Below, piece by piece: positions 7,780 to 26,785 of a DNA stretch of 28,852 nucleotides. The position numbers and the translations under genes are program-made. Each line of letters opens with the position of its first letter. The stretch's first letter is position 1. Source of the stretch: a virus; IMG/VR virus record IMGVR_UViG_3300047508_000050, positions 1 to 28,852 of that record; one strand, given 5' to 3'. Below the pieces are notes generated by a model that was not told the origin of the DNA, did not search any database, and worked only from the letters and a program-made list of their open reading frames with translations.

Positions 7780-8177
7780 TTGATCTTCTTTGCGTCAATC
7801 CAAAGAATGTTCATCAGATTTGGCCGCAGGCGAAAGAGTTGATCCGCTCCGCGATCGAGCGGACGGATTTAAGCGATTTTCGAGACATCGAATACGACGT
7901 GTTGGCGGGCGATCAATTGCTTTGGTTGGCGATCTCTAACCACGTTGAAGCCGCTGCAACTACGCATCTGACCCGGATAAGGGGCAAGACGGTTCTAGTA
8001 GTGACAGCCTGCGCCGGCCACGGCAAAGACCGTTGGCTCCCGCTGAAAGCCCGCATTGAACAATATGCCAAAGCCGAGGGCGCGAAATGCGTTCGTCTGT
8101 ACGGTCGCAAGGGCTGGGCGCGTGAATTGAAAGACTATCACGTCCAATACGTGATTATGGAAAAGGATCTAGCCTGA
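7776..8177 (+). CDS. GNAT-fold-like small phage protein, possible internal virion protein
   Basis: The 133-residue protein has an alternating helix/strand layout (HQIWPQAKELIRSAIERTDL; DVLAGDQLLWLAI; RGKTVLVVTACAGHGKDRWL; LKARIEQYAKAEGAKCVRLY; GWARELKDYHVQYVIMEKDL), which resembles the acetyltransferase-like fold also present in T7 internal protein gp13, though no clear acetyl-CoA R/Q-x-x-G-x-G/A loop is seen (GHGKDR is the nearest). It begins at a TTG (7776) that overlaps the previous TGA (TTGA) and ends in TGATG coupling to the next gene, an ejection-type protein. It probably acts with the ejection proteins; enzymatic activity is doubtful. Confidence 0.6.
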   Translation: MIDLLCVNPKNVHQIWPQAKELIRSAIERTDLSDFRDIEYDVLAGDQLLWLAISNHVEAAATTHLTRIRGKTVLVVTACAGHGKDRWLPLKARIEQYAKAEGAKCVRLYGRKGWARELKDYHVQYVIMEKDLA

Positions 8178-9040
8178 TGGGCGGCACTTCGTCAGCGAAC
8201 CAAACGCAGTCATCGACCACGGCACCGTGGACGGCTGCGCAGCCTGCTCTTTCCGGCATGCTAAGTCAGGTAGGAACCGATCTTAACAATACGCCGGTCA
8301 ACGCAGCGGAAAACGGTGCGCTCAATACGCAGGTATCGAACGCCAACAACTTCGCCAGCCAGTATGCGCCTCAGATCGGCGGCTATGCCAACAGTCTGCT
8401 CGCGGGCGGCGGTGCGAATGCGCAGGCCGGCAACGTCAATCAGAATTATCAGAATTATCAGGCCCAGACCAACCCACTTGCTTCGAATACCAATTATGAT
8501 CCGATGCAGACGCCCGGAATCGGCAACCAGCTTCAGGCGATGCAAGATCAGATCACGGGGCAGGTGAACGGATCGTTTGCCGCAGCCGGGCGCGATGGCT
8601 CCGGCTATAACCAGAAGGCGCTAGGGCAGGGGCTTGCGGCCGGAATGGCGCCGATCCTGACCAATCAATACAACCAGAACGTCCTGAACCAGCAGGGCGC
8701 GGCAAGCAACCTCTATAACGCCGGCAACACCAATGCGGGCATCCTTTCAGGCCTTCAGCAGCAATACCTCACCAACCAAGGGCAGGGCGTCACGGCGGCC
8801 GGGCAATCGCTTGACGCGAACAACGCGGGTGCCAACGCGACCTTGCAGGCGGAAGCCCAACGCCGGGGCATTCCAGTGCAAGCCTTGGGGCTGCTCGCTC
8901 AGATCGGCATTCCCATTGCAGGTCTTGGCTCGCAATCGACAGGGACGGGCAACACGCAAAACCAGATGAGCGGCGCGCAGCAGTTTGGGATGGTTTCGAG
9001 CGGATTGGGCAATCTCTTTTCGGGATTGGGGAAACTCTGA
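8177..9040 (+). CDS. ejection-type internal virion protein, Asn/Gln/Gly-rich
   Basis: This 287-residue protein is very rich in Asn, Gln, Gly and Ala with no charged clusters, has a QNYQNYQ repeat near residue 90, a helical centre (GIGNQLQAMQDQITGQVNG) and a C-terminal amphipathic helix (SSGLGNLFSGLGKL). Such composition and its place as the first of three consecutive large low-complexity genes before a lysozyme match DNA-ejection (pilot) proteins of podoviruses, which are packed inside the capsid and enter the host envelope. ATG 8177 overlaps the previous TGA; its TGA overlaps the next ATG. Function is inferred from composition and order. Confidence 0.65.
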   Translation: MGGTSSANQTQSSTTAPWTAAQPALSGMLSQVGTDLNNTPVNAAENGALNTQVSNANNFASQYAPQIGGYANSLLAGGGANAQAGNVNQNYQNYQAQTNPLASNTNYDPMQTPGIGNQLQAMQDQITGQVNGSFAAAGRDGSGYNQKALGQGLAAGMAPILTNQYNQNVLNQQGAASNLYNAGNTNAGILSGLQQQYLTNQGQGVTAAGQSLDANNAGANATLQAEAQRRGIPVQALGLLAQIGIPIAGLGSQSTGTGNTQNQMSGAQQFGMVSSGLGNLFSGLGKL

Positions 9041-10683
9041 TGGGGCTGCTTGACTCGCTGTTCAATTCAGACACTTACGGCGGCCAAGGCGGCGGCTTGC
9101 TAGATTTTCTGCGCACTGCCCAAATGCAGAATAGCCAATATCAGCCGAATCAGCCGAGCATCGGCTTTCCCGACAACCAGCCGAGCCCGCTTGATAACGC
9201 TCAATATCCATCTGGCCCGAACGGCGCACCTTCCGCACCCGCGAGCTTTGCGGATCGTTTCAACGCGATGCCGAACGCGCCACAACCATTTAATCCGTCA
9301 GGCCGCACCTTTGATGCAGCGCAATTCAACCCGGCGACCTATGCGCCAAATCAAGCCCAGCCTATCGCAGTCGGCAATTACCAGATGCCGCGTATCGGGG
9401 ACGCCCAGCAATTCGCTGGACCTGATCCTGCCGCACTTCCTCCGAACGCGCAGCCCACACAGGGCGGCCCGCTTCCTGCTATGCAGGCCCCGACTACGGA
9501 TATTTCGGCCCAAAGCCGTCAGCCGGAGGCGCAGTCAGCTTTGCCACCTGCCTTTGGCGGCACCAGCATTTTGGGCCGTATCGGCAATCCCGATGGTCTA
9601 ATCGCAAGACTTACCGGCAACGACTCGCGTTCGATCGCGCAGCAAAATTTGCGCGCGACGTTCGACGCTACGCGCCAAGTTCTTAGGCAAAGCGGGATGA
9701 GCGATCAGGAGGCCACGTCAAAGGCCATGCTTGCGGTCCTCAACCCTGAAGCGGGTAAAACCATTTTGCCGGAAGCCCTAACAAATAAGGAAAAATATCA
9801 GGTCATTAGCGAAGACCCGTTGCAGGGCAAGAAATACGGCTTCGTCAATGATCGTGATCAGACCATCAACGGCAAGCCGCTTGGCTCTGATGCCGCCGCC
9901 GGTGCCTCGCAGGGCTTGCAAGCGATGACAGACAAGATTTCGGCCATGAGAACTTCCGGCGCGACAAAAGAACAACTCTTAAACCAGATTCCGACCGGCT
10001 ATCGGGAAGACGTTGACTCCCTGCTTACCGGAAAGGGTGTGCCTGCCAATATGGGGCGCGCTCAATCCCGGATGGCGATACTTACGCTTGCCAAGGTCGT
10101 TGATCCAAGCTTTGACGAAACACTGATCCCGACCCGGATCGCCATGCGCAAGGATTTCTCTGGCGAAGGCAAGAACGGTCAGGCAATCGGTTCGTTTAAT
10201 ACGGCCCAGCATCACATCGACAAGCTCAGTGATGATCTTGAGCAATTGTCAAAATATAACGGGAACTTCCCGACTATTAATGCCGCGAGGTCGTGGTTGG
10301 CAACTAACGCCAACACAAATCCGAAACTGCGCGATTCAATGCAGGCCGTGAACGATGATATGGCCGCCGTCAGTCACGAGGTCGCCAACGCCTACAATAC
10401 AGGTCACTTGTCAGATCATGACATGTCTACGTGGAACAAACTGACGAACACGGATCTTCCGCCAGATCAGTTGCGCCGTGGCATTTCCGATTTTGTCGAT
10501 CTTCTAAACGGCAAACGCGATTCTCTGAATCATATGTACCAACAGACATTCAAAGAGGACGCGCCGACCATCGATAAAGAAAAGAACGATGCCATCACGA
10601 CAAAAGTTCATTCGCGGCTGCCGGGATATGCGAGCGGTGGACAGGGCGGGCTCCCTTCTGGCTGGTCTGTGAAGGTCCACTGA
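9040..10683 (+). CDS. large ejection/internal virion protein
   Basis: The 547-residue protein starts with MGLLDSLFNSDTYGGQGGG, a short helical signature shared with the GH24 lysozyme at 12440. Residues about 25-190 are Pro/Gln/Asn/Ala-rich and disordered; residues about 190-520 are helical and better ordered (SIAQQNLRATFDATRQVLRQ; NKEKYQVISEDPLQGKKYGF; TAQHHIDKLSDDLEQLSKYN; DFVDLLNGKRDSLNHMYQQT). It is coupled by TGATG on both sides. This layout suits an internal protein that unfolds through the portal and forms part of an ejection conduit. I recognise it as a conserved type in rhizobial phages but not as a named family. Confidence 0.68.
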   Translation: MGLLDSLFNSDTYGGQGGGLLDFLRTAQMQNSQYQPNQPSIGFPDNQPSPLDNAQYPSGPNGAPSAPASFADRFNAMPNAPQPFNPSGRTFDAAQFNPATYAPNQAQPIAVGNYQMPRIGDAQQFAGPDPAALPPNAQPTQGGPLPAMQAPTTDISAQSRQPEAQSALPPAFGGTSILGRIGNPDGLIARLTGNDSRSIAQQNLRATFDATRQVLRQSGMSDQEATSKAMLAVLNPEAGKTILPEALTNKEKYQVISEDPLQGKKYGFVNDRDQTINGKPLGSDAAAGASQGLQAMTDKISAMRTSGATKEQLLNQIPTGYREDVDSLLTGKGVPANMGRAQSRMAILTLAKVVDPSFDETLIPTRIAMRKDFSGEGKNGQAIGSFNTAQHHIDKLSDDLEQLSKYNGNFPTINAARSWLATNANTNPKLRDSMQAVNDDMAAVSHEVANAYNTGHLSDHDMSTWNKLTNTDLPPDQLRRGISDFVDLLNGKRDSLNHMYQQTFKEDAPTIDKEKNDAITTKVHSRLPGYASGGQGGLPSGWSVKVH

Positions 10684-12290
10684 TGGCAACCTTTGATTTC
10701 ACTTCCCCGGAAGGCAAGACCTATTCAGTGGACGGCCCTGACGGTGCGACCAAAGAACAGGCTTTCCAGATGCTTCAAACCCATCTCGGGACTGCATCGC
10801 CGCAAGATTCCGCCCCGCAGGTTGGTGTCGGCGAAGATACGGTTAAGGGACTTGCGGCTGGGTTGGGCAATCAGACCTTGGGTGTACTCGGCACCCCCGG
10901 CGTTATTCGTGAAGGACTAGGAGCTGCGACCAGCTACCTCGGCAATAAGTTTGGATTTGATGCCGACCGCATCAGGAACAGTGATCTCGCGACCAAGCTT
11001 GCGGGATATACGCCCGATCCTTCTGAACTGCGGCAGGGCGTCACTGATCCCATTGTGTCTCCGGATTATCAGCCGCAAAGCCTTCTCGGGAAAGGGGCCA
11101 AACTGTTCGGCGAATATAGCTTAGGCTTGGCTGATCCTGCGGCGCTCGCTTCTCCGGCAGGACTCGGACGGGCCGCGCTGACTAATGTTGTGGCTCCGGC
11201 AGCCGGGAGCGAAGTTGCAGGCAAACTGACGGAAGGCACTTCGCTAGAGACGCCCGCACGCATTGCCTCGGCATTTTTAAGCGCCTATGGGGCGTCGAAG
11301 GGACTTGGTGCTCTCGGAGATGCGCGGGCACTCAAGAATGCGACGATTGCCCCAGAATCTCTCAGGTCGCAGACATCGACGGGTTATGATGCACTGAGGG
11401 ATGCCAATGTCGGGAAGCCGCTCCCAGAAGGGGCACTTGGGGATGTGGCGAATACCGTCAGAACCGACCTTAACCTGAAGAACCAGCGTCCCATTAACGC
11501 CCCTGAGCTTCATGCGACCGTAGACCAAATGGAAACGCCTGCGACGGCAGGGGCGCCAGACGTGGCCGACCTGTTAGCCGCGCGGGCAAAACTTAAAGAG
11601 AACATTGGGACCAATCCAGCGGGCACCAAAACGGCGCTGGATAGCATCGACAAGGCAATTGAGAATTATTCGCCGGATACTATCTCGCAGCTAAAAGAAC
11701 TGGATAAAAACTGGACAGGTGTTCGGTCTGGCGAGGCGCTGGACAAGAATTTGGCGATTGCCGAGCGGCGCGCGGCCGGCGCTAATTCGGGACTAAATCT
11801 CGGCAATACGATCCGGCAAAGGGTGAATAGCTTTCTGACCAGCTCGCAAGCCAAGTTTCTATCTGACGACATGAAAGCGCAACTAGAGAAAGTTAACGCG
11901 GGCACGGCCACGCAAAACACGTTGCGCGATATTTCCAACATGCTTGGTAAGGGTCATGGCCTAGGGGGGGCCGTTGCTGGCGAAATCATCGGTCACATTT
12001 TCGGCAATGATTTAGCAGGGTTGGCCGTTGGCACTCTTGCCGGCCGGGGGACGAATGCTCTTTACTCGCGCTCCGTCGCGAGTTCGGCGCGGAAGGCCGC
12101 AGACGCAATTCGCCGCGAAACTCCGGCGGGACAGACATTCGCCACAGCCAATCTTCCTGCGAAGATGACGCCGGCCGAGTTCAATCGCGCTATTAAAGCA
12201 GCTCGCGTTGAGCACCGCAGGCAAGCCGCTATTCCGGCAGCGGTGGCGGGCATTTACGGCGTGAGAAGTTACGCCGACAAAAATCAATAG
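10683..12290 (+). CDS. third ejection/internal virion protein with short N-terminal GKTY-type domain
   Basis: This 535-residue protein opens with FTSPEGKTYSVDGPDGATKE followed by QAFQMLQ (about residues 4-32), a short N-terminal module that recurs at the start of many phage internal proteins. The middle is Ala/Gly-rich with amphipathic or membrane-active stretches (SLGLADPAALASPAGLGRAA), then helical coils (LLAARAKLKENIG; QLKELDKNWTGVRSGEALDK), and near the end a Gly-rich hydrophobic segment (GGAVAGEIIGHIFGNDLAGL) that could insert in membranes. The C-terminus overlaps the small antisense gene at 12229. It is the last of the ejection set before the lysozyme. Function is inferred. Confidence 0.65.
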   Translation: MATFDFTSPEGKTYSVDGPDGATKEQAFQMLQTHLGTASPQDSAPQVGVGEDTVKGLAAGLGNQTLGVLGTPGVIREGLGAATSYLGNKFGFDADRIRNSDLATKLAGYTPDPSELRQGVTDPIVSPDYQPQSLLGKGAKLFGEYSLGLADPAALASPAGLGRAALTNVVAPAAGSEVAGKLTEGTSLETPARIASAFLSAYGASKGLGALGDARALKNATIAPESLRSQTSTGYDALRDANVGKPLPEGALGDVANTVRTDLNLKNQRPINAPELHATVDQMETPATAGAPDVADLLAARAKLKENIGTNPAGTKTALDSIDKAIENYSPDTISQLKELDKNWTGVRSGEALDKNLAIAERRAAGANSGLNLGNTIRQRVNSFLTSSQAKFLSDDMKAQLEKVNAGTATQNTLRDISNMLGKGHGLGGAVAGEIIGHIFGNDLAGLAVGTLAGRGTNALYSRSVASSARKAADAIRRETPAGQTFATANLPAKMTPAEFNRAIKAARVEHRRQAAIPAAVAGIYGVRSYADKNQ

Positions 12291-12441
12291 CCTTGCCTAG
12301 TAGCCAAGTTGCGAACCACGCGGAAAGACCTCCGATCAGGGCTAAACCATAGCCGTTATTCGGGTCATCTGGCGTCGATAACGCTTGTTGCCAATAGTAA
12401 ACCGCCCCGAAAATCACAAAGGTCTGGAATAACAGCCACAT
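12229..12441 (-). CDS. small two-TM membrane protein, antisense in the late operon
   Basis: A 70-residue reading frame on the minus strand fills the only sizeable gap in the virion operon. It has two convincing hydrophobic segments (residues 2-20, LLFQTFVIFGAVYYWQQA; residues 30-50, GLALIGGLSAWFATWLLG) joined by a polar STPDDPNNGYG turn, and a basic tail (CRRNFSRRKCPPPLPE). Its ATG (12441-12439) overlaps head-to-head with the ATG of the lysozyme at 12440 (CATG). An AGGGAG lies about 15 bases upstream, farther than ideal. The last 62 bases run opposite to the end of the preceding gene. It could be a holin-like or superinfection-exclusion protein, but the plus-strand stops in the gap are the main support. 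Confidence 0.5.
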   Translation of the reverse strand: MWLLFQTFVIFGAVYYWQQALSTPDDPNNGYGLALIGGLSAWFATWLLGKAIDFCRRNFSRRKCPPPLPE

Positions 12442-13198
12442 GAGCCTGTTTGACTCCCTATTCAGTTCGGGCGGCGATGCTCAACCGGCTGCCGCTGCGC
12501 CGCAAGATACTAGCCAAACGCTTGCGCCTCAATACCTTGACGCGATCAAGGGGTTCGAAGGCTATAGCCCGTCCGCATCATGGGATTACAAACAAAACAG
12601 TTCCGGCTACGGCACAAGAGCCCAGCCCGGCGATGAAAATATCCCGCCCGATCAATTAAAGGCGGTTCACGAACAACGCTTTCAAGACGAAACCGGCAAA
12701 GCCGCCGCTAGTGTCGATTCCTTTAGCCCGAACCTTCCTCCCGGGGTCCGCGCCGCCCTTACGTCCCTGACATATAACGCGGGACCGGGCTGGCAGCAAT
12801 CAGGGCTTGGGCAAGCCATCAAGGCCGGGGATCTCGACAAGGCCAAAGACCTGTTTCTGCAATACAACAAGGCGGGCGGCGCGGTTAACCAGGGCCTCGT
12901 TAATCGTCGCCAGCAAGAGGCGGCGTGGTTCGGGACTGGATTGCCAGCACCCCAGCAAACCGCATCAGCGACTTCCGCAAGCCCGCCTAGCGCCCCTGCA
13001 CAGCCCATCCCGCAACCGCAACAACCGATATTCCCGCAGCAGGCCGCACCACAAGCGGCCCCGTCCGCCTTTGCCCAGATGCCAGCGCCGCAAATGGCCC
13101 AAGCCCCGCAAATCTTCTACGCGCCGCGTAAGCCGATCGACCTTACCGCCCTCCATGCCGCGCTCGCCAACCGCGCGCCAATCTTCCCCCAAGGATAG
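12440..13198 (+). CDS. GH24 lysozyme (muramidase) with virion-type N-terminus
   Basis: The 252-residue protein has a GH24 (T4/P22-type) lysozyme core at about residues 28-165: IKGFEGYSPSASWDYKQ with Glu40 and Asp49 at the E-8-D spacing, SSGYGTRA with Thr59 as the likely third active-site residue, LTSLTYNAGPGWQQSGLGQA, and GLVNRRQQEAAWF. It cleaves peptidoglycan. Before it is MSLFDSLFSSGG, matching the start of the ejection protein at 9040; after it is a Pro/Gln/Ala-rich tail (about 168-235). No signal peptide is present. Its place among ejection proteins rather than lysis genes suggests a virion-carried entry enzyme. The ATG at 12440 has only a weak upstream GGAA. Confidence 0.82.
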   Translation: MSLFDSLFSSGGDAQPAAAAPQDTSQTLAPQYLDAIKGFEGYSPSASWDYKQNSSGYGTRAQPGDENIPPDQLKAVHEQRFQDETGKAAASVDSFSPNLPPGVRAALTSLTYNAGPGWQQSGLGQAIKAGDLDKAKDLFLQYNKAGGAVNQGLVNRRQQEAAWFGTGLPAPQQTASATSASPPSAPAQPIPQPQQPIFPQQAAPQAAPSAFAQMPAPQMAQAPQIFYAPRKPIDLTALHAALANRAPIFPQG

Positions 13199-13204
13199 CA
13201 ATCA

Positions 13205-14251
13205 ATGTCTCAAGGTTTCTATACGTGGTCGCAAACGGCGTCCTCGAATGCAAGCGCGTCTTCGGCGATCAATTGGGCGGAAGGTCAAGCTCCGTCCTCG
13301 GTCAATGACAGCGCCCGCGCCATGATGGCGGAAACCGCGAAATACCGCGACGACATTGCAGGGGCAATCGTCACGGGCGGCACTTCCACGGCCTACACTG
13401 TCACGTCCTATCAGGTATTTGATACTCTCGCCCATCTTGACGGGAAGGTGATCGCGTTCACGCCTCACGCGACCAGCACGAACGCAGTTGGCGTCGATGT
13501 GACATTGAGTGTCGATTCACTCGGTGCAAAACCCATCCGAATGCAGCCTAGCGTAGCACTGCCAACTGGGACGCTTATTTTGGGAACGCCCTATATTGGC
13601 CTCTATAATAATTCTGACGGCGTGATCTATCTGCACAATACCGTTAACCCCTATGTCATCCCGCTCGCCGCTGGGATGGACTTCTGGGGATCTACCACGC
13701 CGAACAGTTCGTTTGCCTTTCCGACCGGGCAGGCGATCTCGCGAACGACCTATGCCACGCTGTTCTCGATTATGGGCACGACCTACGGCACGGGGAACGG
13801 ATCGACGACGTTCAATTTGCCGGACAAGACAGGCCGCATTTCGGCCATGCAGGAAGCGAGCGCGACCAGGCTAACGTCAACCTATTTCGGTGGCGACTCG
13901 ACGGCGCTCGGCGCGGTTGGCGGCAGCGAAAGTCACGCACTGACAACGGCTGAACTGGCAAGCCATAGCCACACCGCTACGGATGCGGGTCATACGCATA
14001 CGTATTCGGGTCATACCAACACCGCAAGTCAGGGCAGCGGGGCGTCGTTTACTTATCTCGACACGATTCCCGGTGCATTGAGTACCAATTCCGGCACTGG
14101 AACGGCGAGCATCACAGTTGCAAACACGGGTTCCGGCAGCGCTCATACCAACGTGCAGCCGACCATCGTCTGCAATTACATCTTGAGAATTGCTATTGTT
14201 TTGTTGACCTTACATGCCTCTGTTGATATTTTTACAGGATGGACACTTTAG
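13205..14251 (+). CDS. tail fibre with collar domain; C-terminus extended into adjacent insertion
   Basis: The 348-residue protein is a receptor-binding-type fibre. Residues 1-50 (FYTWSQTASSNASASSAINW; APSSVNDSARAMMAETAKYR) form a virion-attachment region common in phage fibres. Residues 152-212 are a phage collar domain (MDFWGSTTPNSSFAFPTGQA; GNGSTTFNLPDKTGRI). The tip has His-rich HSHTATDAGHTHTYSGH (254-270), a metal-binding pattern of trimeric fibre tips. Such proteins usually finish soon after a conserved TIVCNYILRI-type strand; here an extra hydrophobic tail of about 18 residues follows (IVLLTLHASVDIFTGWTL), encoded by AT-rich DNA at the border with the homing endonuclease. ATG 13205 has AAGGA upstream. 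Confidence 0.82.
   Translation: MSQGFYTWSQTASSNASASSAINWAEGQAPSSVNDSARAMMAETAKYRDDIAGAIVTGGTSTAYTVTSYQVFDTLAHLDGKVIAFTPHATSTNAVGVDVTLSVDSLGAKPIRMQPSVALPTGTLILGTPYIGLYNNSDGVIYLHNTVNPYVIPLAAGMDFWGSTTPNSSFAFPTGQAISRTTYATLFSIMGTTYGTGNGSTTFNLPDKTGRISAMQEASATRLTSTYFGGDSTALGAVGGSESHALTTAELASHSHTATDAGHTHTYSGHTNTASQGSGASFTYLDTIPGALSTNSGTGTASITVANTGSGSAHTNVQPTIVCNYILRIAIVLLTLHASVDIFTGWTL
14204..14232 (+). promoter_or_regulatory. candidate sigma70-type promoter for the HNH endonuclease
   Basis: TTGACC (14204-14209) and TATTTT (14227-14232) are separated by exactly 17 bases in an AT-rich stretch inside the 3' end of the fibre gene. The predicted start point falls near 14239, just upstream of the endonuclease start. 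This would let the endonuclease be expressed independently of the late operon. Confidence 0.5.
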
Positions 14252-15006
14252 TGATTTGCGGCGGCCAGTTTGGGAAACTGACCGTAATTGAATACCACTC
14301 CAAGGATCGGAGTGGCTACAAATACAGATGTCGGTGCGAGTGCGGCAAAGAGTGCGTTGTCTGCGCATCCAAGCTTAAGTCGGGGCACACCAAATCCTGC
14401 GGATGCTCCAAGCATGGCAATCGTCCATCCGCTATTCGGGCCGGCCAAAAATACAACCGACTAACAGCAATTGAATTTCTCAGGAGCGATTGCGGCCGGC
14501 GCATATGGAGGTTTGCCTGTGATTGCTCCACCGAGCACGTTGCAGCAGCCGGGCCGGTAAAGTTTGGCCAAATCAAATCCTGCGGCTGTCTGTTCTCCGA
14601 TAAAATCAAACTACCGAGGCCCGGTAAGCACAAGATGATACGCACGCCGGAATACCGAACGTGGTCGTCTATGCATCGGCGCTGTCGATATAAGGTGGAG
14701 AATCCACGTCATGGTGGTCGCGGTATTGCCGTGTGCCAACGGTGGAGTGAATTTGCCAACTTCTATGCTGACATGGGGCCGCGTCCACGTGGATGTTCCC
14801 TTGACCGCATAGACAATGACGGCAATTACGAACCATCAAACTGCCGCTGGGCTACGCCCAAGCAACAGGCGAACAATCGCCAAAACAGCAAGACAGTCAG
14901 CGTCAACGGCGAAGAGGTCTCAATTGCAGACGCTTCGGTAATTCTCGGAGTGCCGACGCCAACTTTATATTGGCGTCTTAAACACGGAAAACCGCTCTAC
15001 GCTTAG
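14251..15006 (+). CDS. HNH homing-type endonuclease with duplicated Cys-rich N-terminal module
   Basis: From GTG 14251 the protein has 251 residues. Two tandem modules of one type precede the nuclease: FGKLTVIEYH...CRCECG...GHTKSCGC (about 7-52) and YNRLTAIEF...FACDCS...GQIKSCGC (about 68-113), probably metal-binding. The nuclease core (about 130-205) has TPEYRTWSSMHRRC, HGGRGIAVCQRWSEFANFYA and CSLDRIDNDGNYEPSNCRWA, typical of phage HNH homing enzymes. A C-terminal helix-turn-helix segment (SIADASVILGVPTPTLYWRL) probably reads DNA. GTG 14251 overlaps the fibre stop (TAGTG) and has AGGATGG 8 bases upstream; the in-frame ATG 14239 lacks a site. Base composition is more AT-rich than its neighbours, indicating transfer. 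Confidence 0.8.
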   Translation: MICGGQFGKLTVIEYHSKDRSGYKYRCRCECGKECVVCASKLKSGHTKSCGCSKHGNRPSAIRAGQKYNRLTAIEFLRSDCGRRIWRFACDCSTEHVAAAGPVKFGQIKSCGCLFSDKIKLPRPGKHKMIRTPEYRTWSSMHRRCRYKVENPRHGGRGIAVCQRWSEFANFYADMGPRPRGCSLDRIDNDGNYEPSNCRWATPKQQANNRQNSKTVSVNGEEVSIADASVILGVPTPTLYWRLKHGKPLYA

Positions 15007-15041: not shown

Positions 15042-15054
15042 CATGGGAATATCA

Positions 15055-15750
15055 ATGGCAATCTTCCCTCGCGTTGTGGACCTGTTCCACGGCGATCTGC
15101 TCTATAGCGATGCCCATCATACGGACCCTACGGCTGATTTCCGCGCGATGGCGTCGGCCGGTATTTATGGAATGATCCACAAGGCCACGCAAGGGTTAGG
15201 CGTCTCCGATCCTGCCTATGCGCGACGTGTCCAGAATGCGCGGCTCGCGGGTCTCCTGACCGGTGCCTATCACTTCAACACAGGCGACACGGTACAGGGT
15301 CAGATCAACCATTTCTTCGATGTAGCGCAACCTGACTATCGCACATTGATGGCACTTGATTGGGAGGACAATAGGGCCTCGCAAATGACGCTTTCGCAGG
15401 CCGTCCAGTTCCTTCAGATCGGCAAGGAAATGCTTGGGCGGCCGCTATGGCTATACAGTGGCAATCGGGTCAAGGAACAGATTGTCAACGCCAGCGAAGA
15501 GATAAGGCAGACGTTTGCGGAATGCCCGTTTTGGCTTTGCGAATACGGCCCGGTTGCCAAGATGAAAGACAGCACTGGAAAGCCGTTGCCGTGGGTTGAG
15601 CCCACGCTTTGGCAATTTTGTGGTGACGGTATCGGACCGATGCCGCACACGCTGCCCGGCATTCTCACTAAAGGCATTGACATCAACAGCTTCCAGGGAA
15701 CGCGCGACGATTTGGTCGAAGCCTGGACCGATAACGCTCTTACTTCCTAA
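15055..15750 (+). CDS. GH25 endolysin (lysozyme/muramidase)
   Basis: The 231-residue protein matches glycosyl hydrolase family 25: VVDLFHGD near the N-terminus with Asp9, FRAMASAGIYGMIHKATQG, GAYHFNTGD (70-78), and MALDWEDN (99-106) carrying the catalytic Asp/Glu pair, then PLWLYSGNRVKEQI, FWLCEYGP, LWQFCGDGIG and GIDINSFQGT. It hydrolyses peptidoglycan for host lysis. No signal peptide is visible, so it relies on a holin. An in-frame ATG at 15043 sits in the terminator T-run; ATG 15055 has GGGA 6 bases upstream and is preferred. It leads the lysis group (holin and lipoprotein follow). Confidence 0.87.
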   Translation: MAIFPRVVDLFHGDLLYSDAHHTDPTADFRAMASAGIYGMIHKATQGLGVSDPAYARRVQNARLAGLLTGAYHFNTGDTVQGQINHFFDVAQPDYRTLMALDWEDNRASQMTLSQAVQFLQIGKEMLGRPLWLYSGNRVKEQIVNASEEIRQTFAECPFWLCEYGPVAKMKDSTGKPLPWVEPTLWQFCGDGIGPMPHTLPGILTKGIDINSFQGTRDDLVEAWTDNALTS

Positions 15751-16917: not shown

Positions 16918-17367
16918 CTAGGTTGCCCCTGGTTCGCTAATATATGAAAGCGCTCTCGCTACTCCCTCTTCATTATCTCCGAGATGCGCCAAAACACTGT
17001 TGCATCTGGTACAGAGTAAACCTCGGATTCTTCCTGTTTTGTGGCAATGGTCAACGGCGAGCTTTTTTGCTGTGCAACGGTCGGGAGTTCTGCGACAAAT
17101 TGCGCACCGGCCACCTTGCGCGGACAACATCCTGTCGAAGTCCTCTTGATCTAAACCATAAACGGCACGTAACCGATTGTTTCGAGCCTTCAAGGGGTCT
17201 GGCTTCCATGAATACGCGCGTGCTTCGGGACGCCTTCTACGGATATTCTGATATCCATTGCGGCAAGATCGGCACTGTCCACGGTAGCCGTCTTTATACC
17301 AGCGGGACACCTCAAATTCCGAAATGGTCTTTTCGGTCTTGCAATCGGAACAAGTTTTAGTTTGCAT
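16918..17367 (-). CDS. endonuclease VII-like HNH nuclease
   Basis: The 149-residue protein has an N-terminal treble of Cys pairs (C6-x2-C9 and C32-x2-C35) and a C-terminal recombination endonuclease VII-type core: VYGLDQEDFDRMLSAQGGRC, C88-x2-C91, VDHCHKTGRIRGLLC (105-119) and C119-x2-C122, ending NSVLAHLGDNEEGVARALSY. The family cuts branched DNA in T4; many phage copies are free-standing or homing-type nucleases. ATG 17367 has GAGAAGG 7 bases upstream. It is transcribed against the late genes, so it is likely an independently regulated or mobile insertion. Membership in the nuclease superfamily is well supported; the exact role is not. Confidence 0.82.
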   Translation of the reverse strand: MQTKTCSDCKTEKTISEFEVSRWYKDGYRGQCRSCRNGYQNIRRRRPEARAYSWKPDPLKARNNRLRAVYGLDQEDFDRMLSAQGGRCAICRRTPDRCTAKKLAVDHCHKTGRIRGLLCTRCNSVLAHLGDNEEGVARALSYISEPGAT

Positions 17368-20004: not shown

Positions 20005-20079
20005 CTACTTCCCGTAAGTGCCGGTCTTTCCTATGTTTTCAGCCACTTCCGAAATCGCGCGTGTCAATGGCGTGTCAAT
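19854..20079 (-). repeat. paired ATTGACACG repeats in and behind the integrase gene
   Basis: On the minus strand ATTGACACG occurs at 20071-20079 and 20060-20068 (inside the last codons of the integrase), and again at 19854-19862, next to a one-mismatch copy ATTAACACG at 19865-19873. The copies in each pair are 11 bases apart, about one helical turn. They could be integrase arm-binding sites or a remnant duplication of the gene end. Confidence 0.45.
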
Positions 20080-21039
20080 AATTCGATTGGTCAGCGTGGC
20101 GTCCTTCATCGCGTGACCATAGGTTTCGATCACCATTTCCGGCGTCATATCGACCAGCCATCCGACCGTCACCGGATCGATCCCTCGGCGCAGCAATTGC
20201 GTGACGCAGCCGTGGCGGCAGCAGTGTGGCGTGAGAAGTTGGATCTTCGCGCGCTTGACGGCCTGATCCCATGGCCATCTGACAACCTTCAGGTCGCGAT
20301 ACCAGAACAGCGGTCGGCCTTCCTCGACCGGCATATTGGCGAGCGCCGCGACAAGCATTGCCGGCAGATGTGCCTTGCGCTTGCCCTTGTGCTGCCCGCG
20401 CTCTTTCTTATTCCTGATGATGGCGGTCCCGGCCTCTAGGTCCAGATCCCTCACAGGATCGATCGCTAGGGCCTCCGACGGCCTGCATCCGGTCAGGAAC
20501 ATGAATAGCGCATAGGTGCCCAAGATCGGCCCAGCCTCGCCCCGGAAGGCGCTAACCCATTCCATTGTCGCCGGGTCTTTCGGCTCGCCCTTTTCCTCGA
20601 ATCTGTTCTTGATCAGCAGCGGCGGACAAAGTTCGGCCTCGGCGCAATGATTGATGACCGACTGCGCCGGAGTCAGCGCGCGCCGGTTCATGCTGGCGCC
20701 GGAGTTGCCGGGGAATAGCTCGATCGCCATCTGCTTCAGCGTGCTCGGCTTGATGTCCTTGACCAGCCAGTCCCTCAGATAGTTCTCGACCGGCTCCAAA
20801 AACTTGTTGTCCTTGCCGGCGGCGCGATACAGCTTCACCGCCTCGCCGAACGTCAGGATTGCTGTCGGACCATCGAAATGACCGTTCCAGATTTTCCCTT
20901 CGATGTCGGTAGCGAACCTCTGGGCCTTCGCTTTGTCGGCGGTTTTGGTTGACTGGCGGACGTGGAGACGCCGGCCAGGCGGGCCAAGAGTGTCGTCGAT
21001 ATGCCAGACGCCGTGACGCTTGATGAGCTTGACGGGCAC
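20005..21039 (-). CDS. int: tyrosine-family site-specific integrase
   Basis: The 344-residue integrase starts at GTG 21039 with GGAGG 7 bases upstream; the longer frame from 21108 is rejected because it lies in the excisionase-like gene and lacks a site. The N-terminal part has KLIKRHGVWHIDDTL arm-binding strands, followed by a core-binding helical region (FGEAVKLYRAAGKDNKFLEP). The catalytic domain has LFMFLTGCRPSEAL (Arg186), LLTPHCCRHGCVTQLLRRGI (His272, Arg275), a likely Trp294 (VGWLVD), and IETYGHAM with the nucleophile Tyr307. It recombines attP with a host attB. It is the last gene of the long leftward operon, so its expression is tied to early leftward transcription. Confidence 0.9.
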   Translation of the reverse strand: MPVKLIKRHGVWHIDDTLGPPGRRLHVRQSTKTADKAKAQRFATDIEGKIWNGHFDGPTAILTFGEAVKLYRAAGKDNKFLEPVENYLRDWLVKDIKPSTLKQMAIELFPGNSGASMNRRALTPAQSVINHCAEAELCPPLLIKNRFEEKGEPKDPATMEWVSAFRGEAGPILGTYALFMFLTGCRPSEALAIDPVRDLDLEAGTAIIRNKKERGQHKGKRKAHLPAMLVAALANMPVEEGRPLFWYRDLKVVRWPWDQAVKRAKIQLLTPHCCRHGCVTQLLRRGIDPVTVGWLVDMTPEMVIETYGHAMKDATLTNRIIDTPLTRAISEVAENIGKTGTYGK

Positions 21040-21203
21040 TTGTTCGCCTCCAAAATCTTCCTGACATCTTCGTCCAGCAGCCGCATACGATGCCCTGAAC
21101 CGCGACACGCGCCAAGGCGCATCGCCTCGCTTCGTACAAATCTTTCAGGCCAGCCGAAATGTTCGGCGACCTCGTGGGGCTTATAAACGGCCGGCAGGGT
21201 CAT
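20853..21203 (-). CDS. excisionase-like HTH DNA-binding protein overlapping int
   Basis: The 116-residue product begins MTLPAVYKPHEVAEHFGWPE with a winged or HTH_17-type DNA-binding region to about residue 55 (FVRSEAMRLGACRGSGHRMR; LLDEDVRKILEANK). A Ser/Thr/Ala-rich linker and a basic tail ending GTVISMVRQQS follow; the tail pattern resembles that of rhizobial phage proteins encoded next to integrase. ATG 21203 overlaps the upstream stop (ATGA). The last 187 bases overlap the integrase start in another frame. It probably controls excision direction; no sequence evidence excludes a simple regulator. Confidence 0.7.
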   Translation of the reverse strand: MTLPAVYKPHEVAEHFGWPERFVRSEAMRLGACRGSGHRMRLLDEDVRKILEANKCPSSSSSVTASGISTTLLARLAGVSTSASQPKPPTKRRPRGSLPTSKGKSGTVISMVRQQS

Positions 21204-25001: not shown

Positions 25002-25159
25002 GTCGTTTCAATCCGGTCGTATTTACGAACGGCGCTTTGGACTGCATCGGCGCAGAACTGCATTCCGTTCTTGCGAACCAGCCGCTTTGCGACTTCCCGC
25101 CAGTTTCGCCAGGTGTGGTAAAGGCGAAGTGCTTCCTTAACGTCGATCTGTTCGCGCAT
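24998..25159 (-). CDS. 53-residue small helical, possibly HTH, protein
   Basis: A frame from ATG 25159 to TGA 24998 reads MREQIDVKEALRLYHTWRNW, REVAKRLVRKNGMQFCADAV, QSAVRKYDRIETT. The pattern 'ALRLYHTWRNWREVAKRLVRKNG--F-ADAVQSAVRKYDR' looks like a small helix-turn-helix. The start overlaps the exonuclease TAA (TAATG) and the stop overlaps the next ATG, so both junctions fit. It may be a DNA-binding micro-protein; too short for a 60-codon cutoff. Confidence 0.65.
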   Translation of the reverse strand: MREQIDVKEALRLYHTWRNWREVAKRLVRKNGMQFCADAVQSAVRKYDRIETT

Positions 25160-25794
25160 TAGGCGGCTTCCTGCAAACCGTAGAGGCTATTCAGATCCGA
25201 TAGCTTGGCAGCCAGTTCCGAAAGGAAAGAGGCGATTTCAGTTTCCAGTGCGGCTATGCGCTTGTCATCCCGATGGACACGCTTGATAAACAGGCGCATG
25301 TTTTCCGGCATTCTCGGGTCATAGGAGACGAAATCACACCAAGCGCGGCCGGTGCAGGCCATCTGGAATTGCATCTGCGTTTCGTATTTGGCGGGCACGG
25401 CTTGGCCGATCAGCGTCTCTAGATGCGTGGCCGTGTTGGGGCATTTTATTTCCACGAGCCCGTCAGCATCGACCAGACCGTCAGGGGAACATCCGGCCTG
25501 ATCGATCTTCGGATGCGGTACAAATGCGACTTGTTCGACCGTTACGCCTTGATAGAAGCAATAAGCGTCGCGCGCCTCTGGCTCTGTTTCCGTGCCGTGC
25601 TGCATGGCTGCATTGGTGAACGTCTCTGCCGGGGTCCCTGTCAGGCGCTCCGCGATAAGCTGCGCCGCGTAGTTCGCTCGGCTGGCGCTGTAGCCGCTCT
25701 TGGTCTTGGCAACCACGTCAGCGACCTTTGAGGCCGTGACCTTGCCTAGCCGAAGGGCTTTCCATGCGTCGGAGCCTTGAACGATCTGTTCCAT
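25159..25794 (-). CDS. YqaJ-type phage exonuclease (lambda Exo family)
   Basis: The 211-residue protein has QGSDAWKALRLGKVTASKV at the start, MQHGTETEPEARDAYCFYQG (64-83), AGCSPDGLVDADGLVEIKCP (100-119) with Asp105 and Glu115-Ile-Lys117, the catalytic D-(E/Q)xK signature of the YqaJ/lambda exonuclease family, and the conserved VPAKYETQMQFQMACTGRAW. It degrades one strand of double-stranded DNA 5'-to-3' so the annealing protein can load. ATG 25794 overlaps the RecT stop (TGATG); a GTG just upstream is also open. Confidence 0.88.
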   Translation of the reverse strand: MEQIVQGSDAWKALRLGKVTASKVADVVAKTKSGYSASRANYAAQLIAERLTGTPAETFTNAAMQHGTETEPEARDAYCFYQGVTVEQVAFVPHPKIDQAGCSPDGLVDADGLVEIKCPNTATHLETLIGQAVPAKYETQMQFQMACTGRAWCDFVSYDPRMPENMRLFIKRVHRDDKRIAALETEIASFLSELAAKLSDLNSLYGLQEAA

Positions 25795-26615
25795 CACTGC
25801 GACCTTTTCTTTTCGAGAGCGGAAACCGCGCGGGCAAAATCTCGGGGCGGAAGATCAGCAACAGAACCGATTTTGAAGTAGCGGCAGAACGCGATTTTGT
25901 CGGCGTTGGTTTCGTCAAAGAGCGCGAGAAGCGTTTTGATCTGCTCCGCCGTGATTTTCTGATCTGGCGGGAACACCTCGCCGGTTATCGCGTCGTAGTC
26001 AGGAACGCGCTCGTAGGTTGGCGCCGGTCGCTCGTCCGCCGCCTGTCCCATTTCATCGCTGGTGTAGAGGCCGCTTAGTTCGTGCGGGAAGCCCTTGCGC
26101 AGCGCGAGACTTTCGGCGCACTTCGCGAGCATCACATCGGGCATGACTGACCACATGCGGGTCGGTGTGCCGTCCTTTTTGGTCTGGGCATACGACTTGA
26201 ACCGGGCAACGCCCCAGCACGGTTCCTTGAAATCGCTGCGAATGACACCAACCCGAGCCGCGACCGGCGGTGCGTCAGAAAGCCAAACGTCGCACCACTG
26301 GCCGTCCTGACCGCACCAGAACGGACCAACCTGACCGGCATACTTGCCCGTGCGCTCGGCAATCAGCCGAAAGCCGTCAATGCTGACCTGAATGGACATG
26401 ACCTCGCGGCCGGCTTGCGCGTCGTACCGCTTAACCGCGTAAATTTGACGGGTGAGTGGGTCCAGCCCGGTGCGTTCCGCCTGATGCAGAAACATCTTCA
26501 ATTCGTCGTCGGTGCCACCTTTGCAGATGGTCCGCTTGATAAGATCGACTTGGCTCCCGTCAAACTGCGGGCGGATCGTTGCGACTTCCTGCGAAGTACG
26601 AATTGCGATATTCAT
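25794..26615 (-). CDS. RecT/Bet single-strand annealing protein
   Basis: The 273-residue protein shows the Bet/RecT family order: [40 protein letters not shown], then [35 protein letters not shown], and [15 protein letters not shown] with [22 protein letters not shown] near the C-terminal half; the end is acidic/flexible. It anneals complementary single strands in phage recombination. ATG 26615 has GGAG 8 bases upstream and overlaps the preceding TGA (ATGA); an ATG at 26633 is rejected. It is directly followed by the exonuclease, forming a two-component recombination system. Confidence 0.9.
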
Positions 26616-26785
26616 GACTGACACTCCATGCACTGGCGGATGATCTCTAGGTCCCGCTCTAAGCTGTCATTGGCGGGAAGCCTGCGAAACTCGGGTTTAA
26701 TCCCAGCCGCACGTTGCAATTGCCAGAAGGACAAAAGCCGGTCTGCGTACTGCTGGGCTGTCTCGATCTGTTTGGCGGAAGCCAT
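26612..26785 (-). CDS. 57-residue helical protein upstream of RecT
   Basis: A frame from ATG 26785 to TGA 26612 reads [57 protein letters not shown]. It has a very good ribosome-binding site (GGGAGG, 7 bases) and its stop overlaps the RecT ATG (ATGA). It is helical with a C-terminal CxxC pair. It falls below a 60-codon cutoff but the start and coupling are strong. Function unknown. Confidence 0.66.

Follow-up and report, generated by a model that had tools for sequence, protein, structure and literature searches.

A phage ejection-block lysozyme is probably one form of a wall-cutting enzyme with interchangeable catalytic domains and appears to carry a domain-swap scar at its start

Why does a phage lysozyme begin almost like an ejection-block protein encoded nearby? 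The question arises in a viral DNA stretch of 28,852 nucleotides (IMG/VR record IMGVR_UViG_3300047508_000050; hereafter the window), where the gene for a 252-residue GH24 lysozyme (12440..13198, + strand) lies between the ejection genes and a tail collar/fibre gene (13205..14251, +; Pfam PF07484, E = 3e-14). Upstream, the + strand encodes ejection-block proteins 1 (8177..9040), 2 (9040..10683) and 3 (10683..12290), of which the first is assigned from its position and the third, the upstream neighbour of the lysozyme, is likewise putative. The product of gene 9040 matched nothing in Pfam or PHROG, and a Foldseek search of its model (pLDDT 55) against the PDB returned nothing at E = 0.001 or better, so that its identity as an ejection protein is also taken from its position. 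A GH25 endolysin (15043..15750, +; PF01183, E = 2e-21) is encoded in a separate lysis region, in agreement with the statement of an earlier note that the lysozyme sits beside the ejection genes and not with the lysis genes. Judged by eye, two genes beside the fibre and lysis genes (14239-15006, +; 16918-17367, -) look like HNH-type endonucleases, and three others look like a tyrosine integrase (20005-21108, -), a YqaJ-like exonuclease (25159-25797, -) and a RecT-like protein (25794-26633, -), from which we consider the phage probably temperate.

Both reading frames start with ATG, and their products begin MGLLDSLFNSD (9040) and MSLFDSLFSSG (12440). The two DNA starts were identical at 23 of 29, 25 of 33 and 27 of 45 bases, which confirms the match at about 23 of the first 29 coding bases that had been reported for them. 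When the first 11 residues of the 40 window genes were compared in all 780 pairs, this pair obtained the highest BLOSUM62 score (33; next best, 17). The chance of such a score for unrelated N-termini was approximately 8e-5 per pair, or 0.07 expected per window, a figure inflated by a background made of the N-termini of fetched loci, some of which were chosen for this motif. The likeness of the two starts is more than composition. It stops at residue 10, however, and beyond residue 8 the similarity of lysozyme and ejection protein was at the level of shuffled sequences (p = 0.93).

The earlier note had suggested that the shared start could be a tag for packaging in the capsid or docking at the portal, which would make the lysozyme an entry enzyme delivered with the DNA. 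Another source of the 23 identical bases would be a local duplication by which the lysozyme gene received the beginning of the ejection gene, but no repeat of at least 20 bases connects the starts at 9040 and 12440, approximately half of the residues in common after the methionine are encoded by differing codons, and the part of the lysozyme leader that follows the likeness resembles other leaders instead (see below). We regard such a duplication as very unlikely.

The lysozyme itself was assigned with confidence to GH24. The PF00959 match (E = 6e-15; 56 bits against a cut-off of 22.3) covers residues 37-160 of a catalytic domain encoded at 12536..12931 (+). Residues E40 (12557-12559) and D49 (12584-12586) were invariant across 15 alignment rows, with a spacing that we take to be that of E11 and D20 in T4 lysozyme. 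Ser54 was equally invariant and apparently occupies the position of T4 Thr26, the third catalytic residue, according to a mapping made by eye. The predicted structure, of modest confidence (pLDDT 62), resembled PDB entry 6et6 (Z = 15.0, rmsd 3.0 over 136 residues), consistent with the lysozyme fold of GH24 enzymes. Reading of the sequence revealed neither a signal peptide nor a membrane anchor. Elsewhere (L021/L081 and L022), a tape-measure-looking protein of approximately 1800 residues has within it a GH24 domain that shares 57% identity with that of the window.

To survey the position of this gene in related phages, an alignment of the ejection protein was used as an independent query. At nearly all loci with room downstream, one enzyme gene was found 1.6-2.3 kb past the ejection protein, the exceptions being L123, with a different arrangement, and L034, which is masked. 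The wall-cutting domain encoded in this slot is of three unrelated kinds (Pfam): among 40 distinct enzymes, 19 were of the GH24, 16 of the SLT transglycosylase and 5 of the Phage_lysozyme2 (PF18013) kind, the last rising to about 12 after a later search. The Pfam match of the SLT versions (PF01464) was weak, and their closest solved relative is the phiKZ transglycosylase gp144. A search of 265 genomes from the genus to which Bradyrhizobium jicamae belongs yielded only two prophage lysozymes. Downstream of the slot, loci L014, L003, L008, L025 and L107 encode GH24-like enzymes of the lysis region that have a hydrophobic N-terminus and are distinct from the ejection-block enzyme.

The N-terminal signature proved to be the exception rather than the rule among the GH24 enzymes. 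The window lysozyme has a 27-residue leader (MSLFDSLFSSGGDAQPAAAAPQDTSQT; 12440..12520, +) that was missing from 18 of the 19 distinct GH24 versions of the slot, drawn from viral contigs and from phage and genome records. These leaderless versions start MALDPEYLDAIK or similar; the relatives on viral contigs, mostly 57-70% identical, begin MALDPEYLDAIK or MALDQSYLDAIK at what is residue 26 of the window protein onward. The leader does not stem from a misannotated start, as there is no in-frame ATG, GTG or TTG between 12440 and the GH24 domain. Enzymes with and without it occupy the same slot and end in the same C-terminal tail, while the homologues of the ejection protein retain the GLLD start.

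The earlier note had named the lack of the common start in homologues as a refutation of the tag, which was rejected on these lysozyme homologues. The pair at 9040 and 12440 is indeed the best N-terminal pair of the window, and all 16 SLT versions as well as about half of the Phage_lysozyme2 versions have an M[GAS]L[IVLS]D-like start in phages whose ejection protein starts with GLLD, so that a weak shared role of these starts is possible. But apart from the leaderless GH24 versions, the start is also missing from at least 5 of the roughly 12 Phage_lysozyme2 enzymes in the same slot, in the SLT versions it lies inside the catalytic domain (Pfam SLT match from residue 4), and it is the tail, not the start, that is universal. 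A tag of this kind is thus highly improbable; the likeness is real, and the cause proposed for it is most likely wrong.

Where the leader may come from is suggested by the Phage_lysozyme2 versions of the same gene. A tblastn search of phages with the leader alone gave no match. The window leader MSLFDSLFSSGGDAQPAAAAPQDTSQ aligned over its full length with the leader of one Phage_lysozyme2 version (L121; GLLDSVFSGGQAEQPAPQPDPQDNAQ), with a score of 57 compared to 34 for the ejection protein. Beyond residue 8, where no similarity to the ejection protein is left (p = 0.93), the match remained significant for three Phage_lysozyme2 leaders (p = 0.018 for L121, 0.003 for L109 and 0.001 for L127), and more leaders of this kind were found at L158 (MGLLDSILGGGQAEQPAPQDNAQ), L162 (MGLLDSLLGGGDQSASSPQPAPQDNAQ) and L155 (MGLLDSLPGEQPAPQDNAQ). 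By these alignments, the nearest kin of the leader is the leader of a Phage_lysozyme2 version and not the ejection protein.

What then remains of the likeness to the ejection protein reflects, we propose, either chance or a common habit of beginning with a short hydrophobic segment. Starts of the type MG[LI][LI]Dx[LI]F recur among unrelated phage proteins, including long proteins beginning MGLIDRLFGR that look portal-like on reading, and a stricter codon-pattern scan of the collection for this start retrieved unrelated proteins. Convergence alone on a widespread amphipathic start, without any shared history, may account for the resemblance to the ejection protein taken alone; as a full explanation of the leader it is unlikely, since the match to the Phage_lysozyme2 leaders extends over the whole leader, linker included, and would be left unexplained.

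The Phage_lysozyme2 leader in turn is apparently the start of an SLT version. In the latter, the start MGL[IV]DSIIG[VA]ESGG belongs to the catalytic domain, and the glutamate of ESGG aligned with the ES of phiKZ gp144. The DNA of one Phage_lysozyme2 locus (L109) was 100% identical to that of an SLT locus (L115) from position -23 to about +37 of the gene, dropped to approximately 50% through the catalytic domain and rose again to mostly 60-93% toward the tail. L109 thus appears to exemplify an SLT start left behind on a Phage_lysozyme2 domain.

Exchange of domains in the slot seems to have been frequent. When the domain kind was mapped onto an ejection-protein tree, at least 15 changes were needed compared to 16.9 after shuffling, which is near random, although the count is rough because the ejection gene is itself mosaic. 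Between near relatives with different domains (L009/L027 and L013/L025), the DNA was approximately 70-98% identical as far as the start codon, fell to about 50% identity across the domain and became more similar again at the linker and tail. These comparisons show repeated swaps whose left border usually coincides with the start codon. In the window, the left border would lie approximately 80 bases inside the gene, and the leader of an earlier Phage_lysozyme2 or SLT version would have stayed on the incoming GH24 domain. We therefore infer that the leader is a domain-swap scar, the remnant of a previous domain, a reading that rests on a 26-residue match of low complexity in the one leader-bearing GH24 gene known. 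The N-terminal signature is optional and was most likely passed down from versions of this gene with another domain.

The universal element of these enzymes, as judged from the alignments, is the C-terminal tail and not the start. In the window, the GH24 domain is followed by a linker rich in Pro, Gln and Ala (12932..13093, +; pLDDT below 50 for residues 168-224) and the tail (QAPQIFYAPRKPIDLTALHAALANRAPIFPQG; 13094..13195, +). All 40 distinct enzymes, of all three kinds, have such a P/Q/A-rich linker and then a tail of approximately 34 residues, QAPPIFYAPRRSPDLSKLRAAFxxPIFxRG; the 40 were chosen by the tail, and the sample based on the ejection protein gave the same picture. A search of the phages collection with the tail found ppBeUSDA76-2 only. 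The conserved tail is a better candidate than the leader for a segment that docks the enzyme in the virion. Elsewhere in the block, some gene 3 homologues have a tail-like C-terminus (NPAILPPRLNVALSALRPALLTRPYF, L107; HMM E of 0.035), a match too weak to claim, and the C-terminal PPxxxVALSALRPALLxRP of the gene that precedes the enzyme at L107 (7043-8636), L068, L007 and L094 bears a faint likeness to the enzyme tail.

The start of the lysozyme gene is overlapped by a second reading frame. On the minus strand, a small gene (12229..12441, 70 aa, MWLLFQTFVIF...) encodes a membrane-like protein and shares with the lysozyme the CATG at 12439..12442, in which the start codons on both strands overlap. 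Whatever the kind of enzyme, a minus-strand frame of 35-73 codons starts at this CATG in 34 of 40 distinct relatives, and at most 2 bases away in 37 of 40. The differences between relatives fell 838/410/1539 on the three antisense codon positions, and single changes were synonymous in 814 and non-synonymous in 280 cases (the pairs are not independent). Given this codon-position pattern and the synonymous excess, the antisense frame looks to be under purifying selection at the protein level. Its products form two or three alternating families of small proteins, membrane-like by eye, that had no match in PHROG.

The first codons of the leader may be subject to a second constraint from this gene. 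A putative Shine-Dalgarno sequence, GGGAG (12454..12458, -), lies opposite leader codons D5-S6-L7. In leader-bearing enzymes, Asp5-Ser6 is mostly encoded by GAC TCC, which on the opposite strand gives GGAGTC at a distance of 12 bases upstream of the antisense start. TCC was used for Ser6 in 16 of 20 cases, compared to 145 of the 579 other serine codons of these genes (Fisher p = 7e-7, uncorrected for relatedness), and the neighbouring Leu and Ile codons were variable. Significance was limited to this pooled bias: for single sequences, the strength of the antisense Shine-Dalgarno did not differ significantly from synonymous reshufflings (mostly p = 0.1-0.5), and no excess was seen in the leaderless GH24 versions. 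It is possible that the first leader codons are also kept because they supply the antisense gene with its ribosome site.

The entry role proposed for the lysozyme has fared better than the tag: synteny and domain kin make it plausible that the GH24 gene encodes a virion entry enzyme, which we regard as its most likely role given its location among the ejection genes, the GH25 enzyme encoded apart from it, the alternative domains of tail or tape-measure type and the relatives in two other phages. These are Shewanella phage phiY2 and Vibrio phage D530, in which a GH24 domain approximately 33-35% identical to that of the window forms the N-terminus of a large ejection protein of the ejection block, there fused into a protein of about 1390 residues. 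That the window enzyme is instead a second lysis enzyme would agree with the name endolysin of its PHROG matches and with the free-standing GH24 protein. However, the slot is fixed within the ejection block, separate GH25 or GH24 enzymes of the lysis region are encoded downstream, the other domains of the slot are tail or tape-measure types, and in phiY2 and D530 the GH24 kin head giant ejection proteins; a lysis function is accordingly doubtful.

In known podoviruses, wall-cutting domains are part of internal virion proteins, namely the transglycosylase of T7 gp16 and the lysozymes of SP6 gp36 and phiKMV gp36 (PMC5380687). As in these phages, the enzyme of the window has its place in the ejection block; theirs is contained within an ejection protein of 107-143 kDa, whereas the window encodes it separately, as a free 252-residue protein that has a tail of its own. 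A small, free and virion-associated lysozyme of a podovirus is P22 gp4, an 18 kDa neck protein (PMC5380687), which is set beside the window lysozyme by description and, unlike it, is part of the head-tail neck. Also comparable is the lysozyme WAX24427.1 of Bradyrhizobium phage ppBeUSDA76-2, a podophage by microscopy (PMC10127595). It is 78% identical over the domain and has the same slot and the same tail, but begins MATSSLDQSYIDAIK and thus lacks the leader.

Together, these data lead us to read the gene as coding for one form, with a GH24 domain, of a wall-cutting enzyme that is exchanged within the ejection block of a group of phages to which the Bradyrhizobium prophage ppBeUSDA76-2 belongs. 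On this reading, to which we assign as a whole a probability of roughly 0.7, the leader is a swap scar whose first codons may be held as the ribosome site of the antisense membrane-like gene, and the enzyme probably travels in the virion, where its C-terminal tail would hold it, and would cleave peptidoglycan as the DNA enters the cell. More tentatively, the locus could be a plug-in site, in which one tail docks three domains in the virion, the CATG is the exchange point and the first codons serve as the antisense ribosome site.

The proposed N-terminal packaging tag thereby gives way to a candidate docking tail at the C-terminus, which is open to test and is joined to three unrelated wall-cutting folds, so that one short segment could be tested as the holder of such enzymes in the virion. 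The locus also illustrates that anyone reading a single genome may be led astray by what is probably a domain-swap scar. In most of this phage group, moreover, an antisense gene that overlaps the start codon of the enzyme has been kept.
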